From positions 62,001 through 126,000 of the forward strand of contig JAEESZ010000008.1 of the NCBI GenBank assembly GCA_016286535.1: 64,000 nt of DNA. Reading direction: 5' to 3'. Of this stretch, positions 53,035 through 64,000 are shown one piece after another (within the stretch, counting starts at the first letter, position 1; each line of letters starts with the position of its first letter). Source of the DNA: Treponema sp. GTDB taxonomy: Bacteria; Spirochaetota; Spirochaetia; Treponematales; Treponemataceae. The position numbers were made by a program, and so were the translations under genes. The notes under the pieces were generated by a model that searched no databases, was not told the DNA's origin, and was given only the letters and a program-made list of their open reading frames with translations.

Positions 53035-54426
53035 ATGATAAAAGATTCAGCAAAAAAAGTTAAAAACTTTTCGCTAAAAATGAAATTCTGGGGCCTTTTT
53101 ATGCCTATTATGGGCCTTGTTTTTGGAGTTTCGGTTTTAGTATCCGGAGTTTTTATTAGAAAAGCAACTTCAAAAATGAATGCCTCTGTACTGGAATATT
53201 CAGAATGTGCTCAGGCAATTACAGCCTTCCGAGAAGCTTCAGATTTTCTTACTAATCAGGTTCGTTTCTTTGTACTTACTCATAATCTTGTAAACCTTGA
53301 AAACTTTTTTATAGAAGAAAATTCAGCCTGTCGCAGGGAAAAGGCCGTAGAAATTGTAGAAAAATACGTTCCCGACGAAAGCGTCAAAAAAAATCTGAAA
53401 GCTGCTTACCGGGAATCAGAGGAATTAACCCTTACAGAATATTATGCAATGCGTCTTGTCTGCGAGGGAATGCACATTTCCATTACCAAACTTCCTCTTC
53501 AGGTTGCAAAAGTTATTCTTAAACCAGAAGATGAAAAACTTTCTGACAGTGAAAAATTCGATAAGGCAAGCCATCTAGTTTATGATTATGATTACCTTGA
53601 TTCAAAAGACAGAATCATAAAATATGTAACCTTAGCCCAGCTGGGCCTTACAATTACCTATACAGACAGCCAGAAAAAGAACAATGAAGGCTTAAAGTCT
53701 CTTTTTAGTAAACAGGATGTTTATATAGTTTTACTTTTTGTTGTCTGTTTTCTTTTTATTCTGTTTATTATATTTTTTGTTCTTGTTCCCCTCGATAATG
53801 ATGTGCTCTGCATCGTTAAAGGAACAAAAATGCAGATTCACGGGGCAGAAGAACTTAAAACTATTGCCAGGGCATATAATCTTCTTTGCGAAAAAAATGA
53901 TTTAACAACAAATGTTTTACGTCATAAGGCAGAGCATGACCCATTAACCGGCTTAATAAACCGTGAAGCTTTTGAAAATATCAAAATTGCTTATAAAAAT
54001 GTAACTGAGCCTCTGGCCTTTATAATGATTGATATTGATTTATTCAAACAGATTAATGATAAGTATGGTCATATGGCAGGAGATGATGTTCTCCGTAAAG
54101 TTTCTGAATATCTTATTGAGCAGTTCAGGTCTACAGACTATATAGCCAGGGTTGGGGGAGATGAGTTTGCAGTTTTAATGACCCAGCTTTCTGATAATCC
54201 TAAAGAAGCAATTACTAAAAAAGTTGAAGCGCTTAATAAAGCTTTATATGAAATGGAAGATGTATTACCTGCTGTTTCATTAAGTGTAGGAGTTGCTTTT
54301 GGTAACAATGGTGTTACTGATGAATTAATAAAACATGCTGATGAAGCTTTATATAATGTAAAAAAGAATGGACGCTGTAACTGTTCGTTCTATGATGATG
54401 AGGTAGATAATAATGGCAACAAGTAA
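53035..54426 (+). CDS. Membrane diguanylate cyclase with intact GGDEF and I-site
   Basis: DPLTGLINREAFENI, IMIDIDLFKQINDKYGHMAGDDVLRKV, RSTDYIARVGGDEFAVLM. Confidence 0.9.
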   Translation: MIKDSAKKVKNFSLKMKFWGLFMPIMGLVFGVSVLVSGVFIRKATSKMNASVLEYSECAQAITAFREASDFLTNQVRFFVLTHNLVNLENFFIEENSACRREKAVEIVEKYVPDESVKKNLKAAYRESEELTLTEYYAMRLVCEGMHISITKLPLQVAKVILKPEDEKLSDSEKFDKASHLVYDYDYLDSKDRIIKYVTLAQLGLTITYTDSQKKNNEGLKSLFSKQDVYIVLLFVVCFLFILFIIFFVLVPLDNDVLCIVKGTKMQIHGAEELKTIARAYNLLCEKNDLTTNVLRHKAEHDPLTGLINREAFENIKIAYKNVTEPLAFIMIDIDLFKQINDKYGHMAGDDVLRKVSEYLIEQFRSTDYIARVGGDEFAVLMTQLSDNPKEAITKKVEALNKALYEMEDVLPAVSLSVGVAFGNNGVTDELIKHADEALYNVKKNGRCNCSFYDDEVDNNGNK

Positions 54427-56557
54427 AGATTCTAAAACAAGTGGAAAAGGACTGGCAGCAAAAGCAAGTGCTGTTGCAGAAACAAAGGGAAAGACAAGTT
54501 CTGCTGCAAAGAAAACTCCAGCTGCAAAAACTACTGCTGCAACAAAGGCGCCTGCTGTTTCGAAGGCTGCTGGCACAAAGACTGCCTCTGCCGCTGCAAA
54601 GACTGCCCCTGCCGCTGCCAAAACAGCTCCTGCCACAGCAAAAGTACCTGCCGCCGCAAAAGCTCCTTCTAAAGCCGCCCCTAAAACTGCCGCCAAAAAA
54701 GTTGCAGCGCCAGCCGCTCCTGTTGTTTATGATGAAGATTCCATTCAGCACCTTGACGGTCTTGAACATATTCGTCTTCGTCCTGGTATGTACATTGGTT
54801 CTCTGGGAGATGGTGCAAACGAAAACGACGGTATTTATATCCTCTTAAAAGAAGGAATCGATAACTCTGTAGATGAATTTTCACAGGGCTTTGGTAATAA
54901 AATCGACATTGAAATAAAAGACGGCCGTGTAAAAATCCGCGACTACGGACGTGGTATTCCTCTTGGAAAACTTGAAGACTGTGTTTCCAATGTAAACACA
55001 GGTGCAAAATATAATAATAATGTATTCAAACAGGCCATTGGTATGAACGGTGTAGGTATTAAAGCTACAAATGCCCTTTCTTCATACTTCCGTGCTGCCT
55101 CTATCCGCGACGGAAAAATGGCTGTAGTAGAATTCAAAAAGGGAGAAAAAATCTCCAGTAAAACCGGCTCTGCAAAGCCTGGAGTTCCAAACGGAACCTA
55201 CCTTGAATTTGAACCTGATACTGAACTTTTTGGAAAATACAGCTTCAATATGGAGTATGTAGAAAAACGTCTGTGGAATTATGCCTATTTAAATCCAGGC
55301 CTTTTAATTAAGTGTAATGGTCAGGAATATATAAGTCAGAACGGTATTCAGGATCTTTTGATTCACGAAATGGATGGAGAAGGTAAGTCTCTTTATAAAA
55401 TCTTCAGCTACAAGGGCGAAAATCTTGAATTTGTTCTTACCCATACAAACTCTCTTGATAAGTATATTTATTCCTTTGTAAACGGTCAGAGTACAGAAGA
55501 TGGAGGTACCCACGTTACTTCCTTCCTGGACGGAGTTACAAAAGGTGTAAATTCTTTCTTTAAAAAAGAATATGATGAAAAAGATGTTTGTGGCGGACTT
55601 ATCTGTGCTTTAAAGATTGGCCTTGATAATCCTATGTTTACCAGCCAGACAAAAAATAAACTTGGTAACGTAGAAATCCGTGCTCCAATTATTAAAGAAG
55701 TTCAGGCAGTTATTGATGACTGGCTTCGTCATAATCCTGATGTTGCAGGGGCCCTTGAAGAAAAAATCATCAAAAATCAGAAGGCCCGCAATGAAATTAA
55801 CAGTGTTACAGAAAAACAGATTCGCGAAGCAGAAAAATCTGTAATGCTCAAAATCCAAAAACTTAAAGATTGCCGCTACCACCTGCAGGATGGTCCAAAA
55901 GGTGCAAACTCTATGATTTTTATTACCGAGGGAGATTCTGCGACAGGTTCTATGGTAGGAAGCCGTGATGTTTCTTACCAGGCAATTTTCTCTCTGCGCG
56001 GAAAACCTGAAAATATGTATGGCCGCAAAAAGTCAGCTTTGTTTGAAAACGAAGAATTAAAAAATCTTACCTTCAGTCTTGGAGTACAGAAAGATATTGA
56101 AGGGCTGCGCTATGATAAAATCATCATTGCAACCGATGCAGATAACGACGGTTTCCATATCAGAAATCTTGTTATGACTTATCTTCTTTTGTATTTTGAA
56201 GAGCTGGTTTTAAGCGGACACGTTTATATTCTTGAAACACCTTTGTTCAGAGTCCGCAATAAGCAGAAAACCGTTTACTGCTATTCAGAAGAAAGCCGTG
56301 ATAAAGAGCTTGCCTCTATGAGGGGAGCAGAAGTAACCCGCTTCAAAGGATTAGGAGAAATAAACCCAAGCGAATTCGGTCAGTTTATCTTTCCCCGCAA
56401 AGAAGGTGAGAGTGAAGATAAGGGAATGCACCTTACACCGGTTACAATTCAGAGCTTAAAAAATGTTCCTGAAGTTCTTGAATTCTATATGGGTAAAAAT
56501 ACACCTGCCCGCAGAGATTTTATTGTTCATCATCTTGCCGCAGAAATAGATGCATAA
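54413..56557 (+). CDS. parE: Type IIA topoisomerase B subunit (ParE/GyrB family) with Lys/Ala/Pro-rich N-terminal tail
   Basis: LDGLEHIRLRPGMYIGSLGD, EGIDNSVDEFSQGFG, GRGIPLGK, ITEGDSATGS, DADNDGFHIRNL; tail 54413-54727. Confidence 0.85.
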   Translation: MATSKDSKTSGKGLAAKASAVAETKGKTSSAAKKTPAAKTTAATKAPAVSKAAGTKTASAAAKTAPAAAKTAPATAKVPAAAKAPSKAAPKTAAKKVAAPAAPVVYDEDSIQHLDGLEHIRLRPGMYIGSLGDGANENDGIYILLKEGIDNSVDEFSQGFGNKIDIEIKDGRVKIRDYGRGIPLGKLEDCVSNVNTGAKYNNNVFKQAIGMNGVGIKATNALSSYFRAASIRDGKMAVVEFKKGEKISSKTGSAKPGVPNGTYLEFEPDTELFGKYSFNMEYVEKRLWNYAYLNPGLLIKCNGQEYISQNGIQDLLIHEMDGEGKSLYKIFSYKGENLEFVLTHTNSLDKYIYSFVNGQSTEDGGTHVTSFLDGVTKGVNSFFKKEYDEKDVCGGLICALKIGLDNPMFTSQTKNKLGNVEIRAPIIKEVQAVIDDWLRHNPDVAGALEEKIIKNQKARNEINSVTEKQIREAEKSVMLKIQKLKDCRYHLQDGPKGANSMIFITEGDSATGSMVGSRDVSYQAIFSLRGKPENMYGRKKSALFENEELKNLTFSLGVQKDIEGLRYDKIIIATDADNDGFHIRNLVMTYLLLYFEELVLSGHVYILETPLFRVRNKQKTVYCYSEESRDKELASMRGAEVTRFKGLGEINPSEFGQFIFPRKEGESEDKGMHLTPVTIQSLKNVPEVLEFYMGKNTPARRDFIVHHLAAEIDA

Positions 56558-59371: not shown

Positions 59372-59406
59372 TTATGTATTAATTTTGATTGAGAGAGAAG
59401 TTTTAT

Positions 59407-60525
59407 ATGCAAAGAACCGTAGTTGCCATGAGTACGGCAGCAAATCCAGAAGATGCATTTTTCGAAGTAAGTAAAAAGGTACGGGATAACTGTATTTCTC
59501 CACAATTAATCATTTTTTTTAGTAATTACGATAACTTTTATTTTTATACAAATAAGATTCATGAAGTTTTTCCCAACAGCGTAGCAATCGGTTCAACAAA
59601 CTATATGAATTTCTGTTCTGCAGGTTTTGCCCACGAAGGCTTTTCTTTAATGGCCATAAATGACGGTATAGAATGTTCCTGCGAAACTCTGTATGAGCTT
59701 TCTTCATATCCAAAACGCTATATAAAACATATTTACCGGGCCCTGGACGAATTAACAAGTACCGAAAATACCTGCTGCCTGGAGTTTTGTACGGCCTATT
59801 CCAACGGCGAAGAATTTGCCATGGATACTTTTAAAGAAGCTTTTATCGGAAAAAATATTCCTGTTTTAGGTTCATCAGCCGGTTCGGGCTTAAGCGATTC
59901 TGAAAAAACTGTTGTAAGTCTTAACGGAAAGTGTTTTGTAAATTCCTGCGTTTTTGTTTTGATTCACAATCTGGAAGGAAGAATTGCCTTTTACCAGGAA
60001 AATATTTTTAAGTCTACGGATTATGTATTTTCTGTTACAGATGTAGACCTGGATAATCGCCGGGTTTATGAATATGATGGAAAGCCTGCCGCCAATGCCT
60101 TTGTAGAAAGACTTGGAATAAGCCGGGAAGAAATAGAAAATTATCTCAGGTTTCATCCTATGGGAAGGCCTTTAGGGAATAAAATCTACATTACAGATTT
60201 AAATAAAATTATGGATGATGGTTCCATTACCTATTATTCTCAGATTTATAATCATTCTAAACTCTTAATGCTGGAACTTGATGATATAAAAAAGGTCTGG
60301 AAAAAAACGAGTAAAGAAATTCAGCAGAAAATACAAAAAGCATCTTTTTCTATAATAATGAACTGTGTTACGAGAACCCGTCTCTTCGAAAAAGAAAATC
60401 TGATGGAAGAATTTAATGATGAGTTAAACAGCAATTATGGCAGTTTTATTGGAATCTCCGGTTTTGGAGAGCAGATGGATTTTATTCATCTTAATCAGAC
60501 TATGGTAATTGTTTTGTTTGAGTAG
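59407..60525 (+). CDS. FIST-domain sensor protein (FIST_N plus FIST_C-like)
   Basis: GSTNYMNFCSAGFAHEGFSLMAI, GSSAGSG, NCVTRTRLFEKENLMEEFNDELNSNYGSFIGISGFGEQ. Confidence 0.85.
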   Translation: MQRTVVAMSTAANPEDAFFEVSKKVRDNCISPQLIIFFSNYDNFYFYTNKIHEVFPNSVAIGSTNYMNFCSAGFAHEGFSLMAINDGIECSCETLYELSSYPKRYIKHIYRALDELTSTENTCCLEFCTAYSNGEEFAMDTFKEAFIGKNIPVLGSSAGSGLSDSEKTVVSLNGKCFVNSCVFVLIHNLEGRIAFYQENIFKSTDYVFSVTDVDLDNRRVYEYDGKPAANAFVERLGISREEIENYLRFHPMGRPLGNKIYITDLNKIMDDGSITYYSQIYNHSKLLMLELDDIKKVWKKTSKEIQQKIQKASFSIIMNCVTRTRLFEKENLMEEFNDELNSNYGSFIGISGFGEQMDFIHLNQTMVIVLFE

Positions 60526-60533
60526 GGTAGAGT

Positions 60534-63500
60534 ATGGCAAGATTTAATGACGGAATTATTTTTACAAATCAAAATTGTATCGTCTGCAATAAATGTATTT
60601 CTCAATGCGATATTCTCGGAGCAAATGTTTCTACCATTCAAAACGGGAAAAAACTCCTTTGTGTAAATGATAAAAAATGTAATCACTGTGGGAAATGTGT
60701 TAATGTTTGTATTCACGATGCCAGAGACTTTAAAGATGATACTGCAACTTTCTTTGAGCTTTTAAAATCAGGCGAAAAATTATCCCTTATTATAGACCAG
60801 ACCTTTTATGTTATTTTTGCAGAAAAAGCTGCAAATGTAATATGGTATTTAAAGAGTCTTGGTGTAGAAAAAATCTATGACCTGGCTTATGGTTCAGAAA
60901 TTTCTTTATGGGCCCATGTAAAGTATCTTTCAGATAATTACAGTAATTTACCGGAAAACAGGGCTTTTATATCAAATACCTGTTCTGCTTTTGTAAATGA
61001 AGTTGAGCTTTATTCACCGGCCCTGCGCTATAAGATAATTCCTGTTCAGAGTCCTCTTATTTGTACGGCAATCTATGCTCATAAATATCTTGGAGACAAA
61101 AACAGGATTGCCTTCTTAAGTTCCTGCATTTCCAAAACAGATGAAATTAGGTGCGAACAAACCGGTCATAATGTAGATTTTAATCTTACCTACCGCCATT
61201 TTATGGACTATATAGATGATTCAGTCCTTACTTCAAAAACAGAAAAATCAGATTTATCTACCAATGGAATTGGAAATATTTTAGGCTACGAAGGCTCTTT
61301 TAAAGATACTGTTGCAAGATTTTTCCCTTCTACAGAACGTTTAATAAGTTTTAAGGGAACTTCAAAGCAGGTTTTCTCAGATCTTGAATATTTTTCTGAT
61401 GGTTACGGAGCTGCCTGTCAGCCTCTTTTTGTAGAAGTCTCTTCCTGTGATTACGGATGCCAGCGCGGTCCGGCCTTTGTAAAGAATAAGTTTGATTATT
61501 CCTATATATACAGTGCTTTTGATAAAATTTATAAAAAAAGCATCAGTAATTTTGAGTATTATGATTTTGATTATCAGAAAAACCGGGACAAGCTTTTTAC
61601 CCGCTTTGAAGAACTCGATTTTGATGACTTCAAACGTGATTATGTAAACCGCTATCATCAGCAGTATAATATTCCTGCCGAAATTTTTGAAAATATCTAT
61701 TCAGTTTTGTTAAAGGATACAGAAGAAAAACGTCAGATAAACTGTGGGGCCTGCGGATATTCTTCCTGTTACGAAATGGCAAAAGCAATTGCCTGCGGTT
61801 ATAACAGAAAAGAAAACTGTCTTCATTATATGAATGACCTTATGGAAAAAAATTATTACACAGATAATCTTACCGGACTCGATAATCAGTCTGGTATTAT
61901 CCGCAAGGGAAATCAGATTATTGAAGCAAATCCTCATAAAAATTATGCAGTATATGCCGGCGATATAAACGGACTAAAAATCATCAATGATATATTCGGC
62001 TTTGACAAGGGAAACGAAGTTTTAAAATATATTGCCCACGTACTTACTAAAACTGTAGGAAATAAGGGAGTTGTCGGTCGAATCGGTGGCGGACTTTTCT
62101 GTATTATAGTAGAACATACTCCGGAATCCATAAAGGCCATCCGTGCTATAAAATCATTTGACTGCAGTCATCTTGGACTACAGATTCCGGTATCTCTGCG
62201 TTTTGGTATTTATGTCTCAGAAAATGAAGGTCTTTCTTTTTCTGATATGTTAAATTACGCAACCTTGTGTATGGACTGCGAGGCTTCTTCAACATTAAAT
62301 ACTTTTACATATTTTACAGATGAATACCGTGCAAAAATGTTCAAGGAGATTGAAATAGCATCTCAACTGCCGTCTGCCCTTAAAAATGATGAATTTATTC
62401 TTTATTATCAGCCACAGTATAAGGCCGGTTCAAAAGTTCTTGTTGGAGCAGAAGCTTTGTGCCGCTGGAAAAAAGAAGACGGAAGCATTGTTATGCCGGA
62501 TTCCTTTATTCCTATTGCAGAAAAAAACGGATTTATTGTAACTCTGGATAAAGTTATATGGAGAAAGGCTTTTTCTACAGTCAAAAATTGGATTGATGAA
62601 GGTATTGAGCCGGTTCCAATTTCCATAAATATTTCAAGGGCAACAGTAGAAAGTGATTCCTTTATAAACACCATAAAGTGCCTTGATGAAGAATTCAGAA
62701 TTCCAAGAAAACTGATTCATTTTGAAATTACAGAAAGTGTTTCTACCCGTAATACAGGTGAACTTGTAGAAAAAATCAATAAGATAAAAGAAATCGGTTA
62801 TAAAATTGCCATGGACGATTTTGGAAGCGGTTATTCTTCTTTAAATTCCTTAAAGGATATTCCTATCGATATTCTTAAACTGGATATGGGTTTCTTTAGG
62901 TCTGATAATAATATGGATAAGGGGGGAAATGTAATTGCATCTGTTGTCCATATGGCTCAGACCCTTGAACTTATAACGGTTGCCGAAGGTGTAGAAACAA
63001 ATGCCCAGGCAAACTTCCTTGCCGGAATTGGCTGTGATGTTATTCAGGGATTTTTATATTCAAAACCTCTTTCCTGCGAAGATTTTACAGAACTTTTACG
63101 TCAGGAAGCTATTGGATATGAAATTTCTAAGCCAAACATTCTTGGCCAGCTTAATGTAAATAAATTCTATAATCCGAATTCCAGCGAAAATTTAATGTTT
63201 GAATTATTTTCAGGCCCTGCCGCCCTTTTTGAATATGATGATCTTGATTACAGGGCTAGACTTTTAAGGGTAAATACTCAGGCTGTTACTTTATTTGACG
63301 CCGAAGGGCTTGTAATTTCTGATATTTCAAATAATCTCCGCTCATATTTCAGTAAATCAACAAGAAAAGAGGTTCTTTCTTTAATGCAGCAGGTAATAAC
63401 CAGTAAGGCTGAAGGAAGTCTTGTAGTGGAGTGCAGGGGATTAAATAAAAAGAATCCTATATGGGTAAAATTCCACTTCTGGGTTTTAAGTTCAATTGTA

Positions 63501-64000
63501 AACAAACATACCCTTTACTGCAGAATGGAAGATTTTACCGAAGAAAAGATTTCTCAGAATAATCTTGCTGTTGCAAATTCCCAGCTGGGTATGGTTTTTG
63601 AGCATTCTGCTGTAGGAATTATATTATTCCACCTTCAGGTAGATACAGAACATCCTCTGGAATTGTTTAAGTTAAAGGTATTGAAAATTAACAGTCAGTT
63701 TACAGAAATGTCCGGTTTTACCCAGGAGGATTTACAGGACTGGAACGAAAAGGAGATTTTAAGCTTAATTCATCCGGTATACAGACCAAAAGTTATGACA
63801 AAAATCTTTTTTGGATATACTAAAAACTTTGAAAAACCTGTTACCTGTAAATATCTTGCCCGTCATAAGGACGGACATTATATGAAAGTTCAGATTCTTA
63901 TTGCGGGAGTAAAGCAGGAAAACGGAAGTTACTTCCTTTCTACAAATTATTTTGTTCTTGATGACAAAATGGCAGATATGGAAGAGCTTTTGGATAACGA
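60534..64000 (+). CDS. Partial multidomain signalling protein: 2x[4Fe-4S] ferredoxin, [FeFe]-hydrogenase-like H-cluster domain, further Fe-S motif, degenerate GGDEF, EAL, PAS-like; continues past window
   Basis: Open from ATG 60534 to window end (missing from the ORF track because no stop): CIVCNKCISQC and CNHCGKCVNVC; NTCSAF, SSCISKTDE, VSSCDYGCQRGPAF; INCGACGYSSCYEMAKAIACGYNRKENC; GGDEF position RIGGGLF; GAEALCRW, NIS, FEITES, MDDFGSGYSS, KLD, AEGVET, QGFLYSKPL. Confidence 0.88.
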   Translation, partial: MARFNDGIIFTNQNCIVCNKCISQCDILGANVSTIQNGKKLLCVNDKKCNHCGKCVNVCIHDARDFKDDTATFFELLKSGEKLSLIIDQTFYVIFAEKAANVIWYLKSLGVEKIYDLAYGSEISLWAHVKYLSDNYSNLPENRAFISNTCSAFVNEVELYSPALRYKIIPVQSPLICTAIYAHKYLGDKNRIAFLSSCISKTDEIRCEQTGHNVDFNLTYRHFMDYIDDSVLTSKTEKSDLSTNGIGNILGYEGSFKDTVARFFPSTERLISFKGTSKQVFSDLEYFSDGYGAACQPLFVEVSSCDYGCQRGPAFVKNKFDYSYIYSAFDKIYKKSISNFEYYDFDYQKNRDKLFTRFEELDFDDFKRDYVNRYHQQYNIPAEIFENIYSVLLKDTEEKRQINCGACGYSSCYEMAKAIACGYNRKENCLHYMNDLMEKNYYTDNLTGLDNQSGIIRKGNQIIEANPHKNYAVYAGDINGLKIINDIFGFDKGNEVLKYIAHVLTKTVGNKGVVGRIGGGLFCIIVEHTPESIKAIRAIKSFDCSHLGLQIPVSLRFGIYVSENEGLSFSDMLNYATLCMDCEASSTLNTFTYFTDEYRAKMFKEIEIASQLPSALKNDEFILYYQPQYKAGSKVLVGAEALCRWKKEDGSIVMPDSFIPIAEKNGFIVTLDKVIWRKAFSTVKNWIDEGIEPVPISINISRATVESDSFINTIKCLDEEFRIPRKLIHFEITESVSTRNTGELVEKINKIKEIGYKIAMDDFGSGYSSLNSLKDIPIDILKLDMGFFRSDNNMDKGGNVIASVVHMAQTLELITVAEGVETNAQANFLAGIGCDVIQGFLYSKPLSCEDFTELLRQEAIGYEISKPNILGQLNVNKFYNPNSSENLMFELFSGPAALFEYDDLDYRARLLRVNTQAVTLFDAEGLVISDISNNLRSYFSKSTRKEVLSLMQQVITSKAEGSLVVECRGLNKKNPIWVKFHFWVLSSIVNKHTLYCRMEDFTEEKISQNNLAVANSQLGMVFEHSAVGIILFHLQVDTEHPLELFKLKVLKINSQFTEMSGFTQEDLQDWNEKEILSLIHPVYRPKVMTKIFFGYTKNFEKPVTCKYLARHKDGHYMKVQILIAGVKQENGSYFLSTNYFVLDDKMADMEELLDN

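Follow-up and report, generated by a model that had tools for sequence, protein, structure and literature searches.

The locus analysed here, a gene that joins a hydrogenase-like module to domains of c-di-GMP turnover, raises the question of what such a module senses. It lies at the end of a 64,000-nucleotide stretch of a Treponema sp. genome (hereafter the window). It is assumed that sensory [FeFe]-hydrogenases detect H2 via the H-cluster, and their large c-di-GMP-linked branch is often found in genomes without known maturases; its EAL-linked members offer a clean test of what the hydrogenase-like module senses. An earlier note on this DNA had proposed that H2, CO or redox state is sensed through an H-cluster-like site, with c-di-GMP degradation as the output.

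The sensor gene starts with an ATG at 60534 and is stop-free to the end of the window (1155 codons within it), and another 22 bases of the parent contig (G000:C8) complete it, giving a single frame of 1162 aa. The earlier note, which had reported a stop-free frame of at least 1155 codons, was therefore correct on this point, and the ferredoxin motifs, H-domain, Fe-S motif, EAL and PAS domains that it had named were all recovered by a Pfam profile search (Table 1). Pfam places a Fer4 dicluster at residues 14-63, and the eight Cys of the ferredoxin motifs are invariant or near-invariant in 47 homologues. The H-domain belongs to the PF02906 family, both by score (Fe_hyd_lg_C, 72.2 bits for a Pfam cut-off of 22.1) and by fold (see below). 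A frameshift, a concern raised by the earlier note, or a chimera can be ruled out because homologues of equal length and domain order occur in dozens of genomes.

Table 1. Coordinates of the sensor gene, its domains, its upstream neighbour and related operons (window positions unless a locus is named).
Feature	Position	Strand	Remarks
FIST_N + FIST_C protein, NosP-like	59407..60525	+	372 aa from ATG; upstream gene of likely operon
Hydrogenase-like c-di-GMP phosphodiesterase (predicted)	60534..64000	+	1162 aa in full; final codons and stop beyond the window
Two ferredoxin-type [4Fe-4S] motifs	60573..60728	+	residues 14-65; Fer4_7 under its own Pfam cut-off
Fe_hyd_lg_C (H-domain)	60822..61472	+	residues 97-313; cubane Cys C150, C198, C305, C309; extra invariant C177
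PF04060 Fe-S motif Cx2Cx4Cx16C	61734..61823	+	residues 401-430; C404, C407, C412, C429
Degenerate GGDEF, motif GGGLF	61857..62273	+	residues 442-580 (Pfam)
EAL phosphodiesterase domain, full catalytic residue set	62364..63068	+	residues 611-845, 216 bits
PAS region	63141..63929	+	PAS_3 1050-1132 significant; first PAS (~870-1010) visible only in homologues
HydABC-type operons in two HydEFG-less Treponema MAGs	L161:6229-9792, L162:7252-10925

To assign the H-domain residues, the protein was aligned to L1-L3 of solved hydrogenases and to group A and B proteins of the same genus; equivalences are given in CpI numbering. The four H-domain Cys already spotted in the sequence are the cubane ligands, C150, C198, C305 and C309 corresponding to C300, C355, C499 and C503. 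K201 (K358) and E204 (E361) are both retained. T149 stands at C299, so the Thr noticed before the L1 Cys indeed occupies the place of the proton-transfer Cys, and S196 and S303 stand at M353 and M497. D88-Q89-T90 occupies the A230-P231-S232 region, and the residues around the diiron site at A230, P231 and P354 are D, Q and S. The C404-x2-C407-x4-C412-x16-C429 arrangement is an exact match to the motif of subclasses M2e and M2f, both putatively sensory (PMC8163306), and sensory hydrogenases carry Gly, Ser or Thr at M353 (PMC10055695). Under the definitions of these two papers, the protein has the anatomy of group C (M2f): two N-terminal [4Fe-4S] motifs, Cx2Cx4Cx16C, no C299, a Gly/Ser/Thr at M353 and a PAS domain. 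We thus consider it a sensory, group C-type module.

The predicted structure and the phylogeny agree with this assignment. The AlphaFold2 model of the sensor part (pLDDT 91.1, pTM 0.89, built on 47 homologues) matches [FeFe]-hydrogenases in all 50 PDB matches listed, the best among them being 8a6t_A (E 7.9e-18, TM 0.68). The sensor is neither a group A enzyme (TIGR02512, 49.7 bits for an NCBIfam cut-off of 405.95; Thr149 at C299) nor a group B protein (TIGR04105, 82.6 bits for a cut-off of 450), and a tree of 91 H-domains, in which no reference HydS sequence was included, also sets it apart from group B: it falls among sensory proteins that carry an MCP, HK or GGDEF output, and a support of 100 separates this clade from groups A and B, its fine placement being unsure because of long branches. 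Domains, residues, fold and tree thus concur with the original reading of a hydrogenase-family module of the sensory kind. A scan of GTDB species genomes yielded 465 relatives, 80 of which were kept, from gut and rumen Treponema, other Spirochaetes, Lachnospiraceae and other Clostridia. The same sensor type is joined to a degenerate GGDEF-EAL, to an MCP, to HisKA-HATPase-receiver or to GGDEF, MCP- and kinase-type relatives emerging from the same search as the EAL-type ones. The EAL-linked architecture occurs widely among gut Treponema and Lachnospiraceae.

What does the protein do with its signal? The metal and catalytic residue set of an active EAL phosphodiesterase is complete in the sensor, and E640, N699, E731, D761, D762, K782, E818 and Q838 are kept in 59-60 of 60 EAL-type homologues (60/60 throughout except for one Q, 59/60). 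The GGDEF-like domain that had been recognized is present, but its active site is not that of a diguanylate cyclase: it reads GGGLF instead of GG(D/E)EF, and the canonical motif is missing in 59 of the 60 homologues. The output is therefore predicted to be that of a phosphodiesterase rather than a cyclase, and c-di-GMP hydrolysis, the output first suggested, gains support from these residues.

The proposed input fares differently. H-cluster synthesis is described as needing three dedicated maturases, HydE, HydF and HydG (PMC3457958, PMC11736057). None of them was found in the sensor's own genome (93% complete), which goes against an H-cluster-bearing group C (M2f) enzyme; the earlier note had named their absence as a weakness for its H-cluster claim. 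They were likewise not found in three T. bryantii isolates that all carry the sensor (XBD1002, i.e. G015, 99% complete; B25; NK4A124), nor in 17 other module-carrying genomes. Clostridium sp. MD294, whose genome is complete and encodes an MCP-type relative, lacks them too, and HydE was missing in all 22 genomes re-checked. Gaps in metagenome-assembled genomes (MAGs) are thus unlikely to be the whole story, because the isolates carry the sensor without maturases and the complete Clostridium genome also lacks them. Across the genus, each maturase occurs in 16-17 of 59 genomes, largely the same ones, and a PF02906 protein in 51 of 59. Among the 11 genus genomes with an EAL-type sensor, six lack all three maturases and five have HydEFG, so that an H-cluster is possible in the latter. 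HydG was found in 7 of about 30 Treponema carriers, close to the genus rate (17/59), and we therefore see no association between the sensor and HydG. Given the absence of known HydEFG genes, the scaffold is most likely devoid of a diiron subcluster in this organism.

Could the protein nevertheless carry a genuine H-cluster and, as a sensory hydrogenase, control c-di-GMP in response to H2 or CO? Such a function is compatible with the retention of K201, E204 and the four H-cluster Cys, with the HydEFG genes accompanying some homologues, and with the replacements at C299 and M353, which match those known from sensory hydrogenases (PMC8163306, PMC10055695). We nonetheless find it rather unlikely because the maturases are missing from its own genome and the T. 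bryantii isolates, because it has D, Q and S at the diiron-site positions A230, P231 and P354, and because, as shown next, this relaxation is class-wide.

We compared site conservation in 60 EAL-type proteins with that in 58 others of the MCP, kinase, GGDEF, A and B types. Every one of the 60 EAL-type proteins has the four cubane Cys and C177. By contrast, retention in the EAL-type drops to 39/60 for K358, 18/60 for A230, 45/60 for P354, 43/60 for S323 and 46/60 for P324, whereas in the 58 non-EAL proteins all these positions and the cubane Cys, but not C177, show no variation (Fisher 1.2e-7 for K358). The tree implies at least 7 changes of K358 but none of C300. That K358 was lost as a consequence of HydG loss is unsupported (Fisher p=0.76); K358 loss being independent of HydG presence, the relaxation belongs to the EAL-linked class and not to maturase-less genomes. 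The lack of maturases and the variation of the residues surrounding the diiron site, while the cubane Cys stay, make an H2 input doubtful. A maturase-poor branch that loses these residues and keeps every Fe-S Cys rather argues that the scaffold was reused as a plain Fe-S sensor. The repeated loss of second-sphere residues in the EAL-linked class might also suggest that the hydrogenase portion has degenerated and lost any sensing role, the EAL and PAS domains doing the work. This is very improbable, however: in 47 proteins that are 34-48% identical to the sensor, 16 Fe-S Cys show little or no variation, which is not expected of a useless domain, and the fold is confidently predicted.

We thus favour, as the probable reading, a redox or gas sensor that works through several [4Fe-4S] clusters, independently of an H-cluster, and switches a c-di-GMP phosphodiesterase. 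The protein would be a one-component transducer whose N-terminal 440 residues form a group C-type [FeFe]-hydrogenase scaffold holding four predicted [4Fe-4S] clusters: two in the ferredoxin motifs, a third at the cubane site of the H-domain and the last in the Cx2Cx4Cx16C motif. This Fe-S module may be altered when the redox state of its clusters shifts, or when O2, NO or another small molecule damages or nitrosylates them; the degenerate GGDEF would relay its state to the EAL domain, which would hydrolyse c-di-GMP. Several points count against this H-cluster-independent reading: (i), K201 and E204 are kept in this copy; (ii), its genome is only 93% complete; (iii), in TamHydS (group D), the redox state of the C-terminal cluster is unresponsive to H2 (PMC13104023); (iv), five of the 11 homologues of the genus have HydEFG in their genomes; (v), K358 loss does not follow HydG presence; and (vi), HydABC operons turn up in two genomes without HydEFG, as described next.

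Two Treponema MAGs that lack detectable HydE, HydF and HydG, G030 and G034 (97% and 96% complete), contain apparently canonical HydABC-type operons (Table 1); either MAGs drop hydEFG or another maturation route exists. Group B proteins whose active-site motifs are intact likewise occur in HydEFG-less Treponema genomes. Together with the presence of C177 in every EAL-type protein, these genomes leave some room for an H-cluster or related cofactor made by a HydEFG-independent route, or for a different, gas-binding metal centre, possibly using C177; either of these, together with the FIST partner described below, would set c-di-GMP in gut treponemes. Such a cofactor seems quite improbable to us since the literature on H-cluster synthesis has it needing HydE, HydF and HydG (PMC11736057, PMC3457958), since MAG gaps could account for the HydABC cases, and since C177 is also present in K358-intact relatives. 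As a separate observation, seven genomes (G080, G085, G086, G095, G100, G101 and G108, i.e. loci L109, L116, L117, L131, L139, L141 and L160) encode HydF but no HydG over the cut-off, and five of them belong to one EAL-type locus clade of rumen Lachnospiraceae, which may possess a divergent or partial maturation set.

Under the favoured reading of a plain Fe-S sensor, a second input probably comes from the neighbouring gene, which was absent from the earlier reading. A FIST gene, for which a longer TTG start exists at 59389, stops 8 nt before the sensor ATG. Its product scores above the Pfam cut-offs of FIST sensors (FIST, 64.2 bits vs 23.2; FIST_C, 43.4 vs 28.5) and below that of the NosP equivalog (NF041558, 128.8 bits vs 450; NCBIfam). 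Of the 57 EAL-type loci of the GTDB scan, 28 have a FIST gene immediately upstream of the sensor and on its strand (gap -16 to +118 nt); with the sensor's own genome and L058 counted, the figure is 30 of 60. The FIST and sensor genes likely share an operon. A scan for sigma-70-like promoters and terminators around this operon did no better than shuffled sequences, and an Rfam scan of the window returned nothing. Solo FIST proteins (NosP) reportedly sense NO, and FIST fused to EAL (CdpA) heme, in c-di-GMP pathways (PMC8846402). By analogy, the FIST protein would probably act in trans on the same phosphodiesterase, perhaps in response to heme or NO. Its alignment with 24 homologues contains 18 fully invariant columns, C124 and C320 among them, and no invariant His; a sequence search against the PDB returned chance matches only.

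Known systems share some parts of this arrangement and differ in others. Like Thermotoga maritima HydS (group C/M2f), the sensor has two [4Fe-4S] motifs, an H-domain and Cx2Cx4Cx16C in this order, no C299, a small residue at M353 and a PAS domain; unlike HydS, it has a degenerate GGDEF-EAL output, a PAS at the far C-terminus and not right after the Fe-S motif, no maturases in its genome, and D-Q-T in the A230-P231-S232 region. It resembles HydDB classes C1 (kinase), C2 (chemotactic), C3 (phosphatase) and [NiFe] 2c (diguanylate cyclase-linked) in coupling a hydrogenase-family sensor to a signalling output; however, HydDB lists a diguanylate cyclase class for [NiFe] enzymes only and, in its 2016 version, no c-di-GMP phosphodiesterase class for [FeFe]. 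The sensor-GGDEF-EAL order and the full EAL catalytic set recall the E. coli DosP type, in which the sensor is a heme-PAS rather than an Fe-S hydrogenase scaffold. As in Legionella NosP and V. cholerae CdpA, a FIST_N-FIST_C protein is tied to a c-di-GMP enzyme; unlike these, it scores below the NosP cut-off, its heme binding is only putative, and it is encoded by a stand-alone gene beside a hydrogenase-like phosphodiesterase, with no kinase between. Treponeme hydrogen sensors were reportedly treated by Ballor in 2012. Hydrogenase does not figure in a c-di-GMP sensory domain census from 2022, and in the open literature we found no paper joining a FIST domain with a sensory hydrogenase and none on a hydrogenase-c-di-GMP combination, of which subscription papers may hold an earlier mention. 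The locus names a possible environmental input to c-di-GMP control in rumen and gut spirochaetes, together with a FIST partner gene.

Some further loci deserve mention. In the sensor's own HydEFG-less genome, contig C17 encodes a 2Fer4-Fe_hyd-FeS-MCP chemoreceptor, group C2-like (L011:5373-7487), and C13 a protein that resembles group B and has its TSCC/GPC/SC..GC motifs intact (L010:4331-5788). A divergent GGDEF-EAL gene (L010:2057-4216) lies ~115 bp from the latter, but none of the five same-genus group B loci examined has this pair. C17 also carries a second FIST gene directly followed by one for a small soluble MCP-like protein (L012:5755-7782), another FIST-plus-signalling pair. Within the window, a GyrB/ParE-like topoisomerase subunit (54413-56557) has an Ala/Lys-rich low-complexity N-terminal extension of ~100 residues. 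Finally, a CheA-CheW/R-CheX-CheY-like chemotaxis cluster (L004:9423-14327) is located just downstream, and a CheA-type gene is also found near the sensor in L054 and L057.
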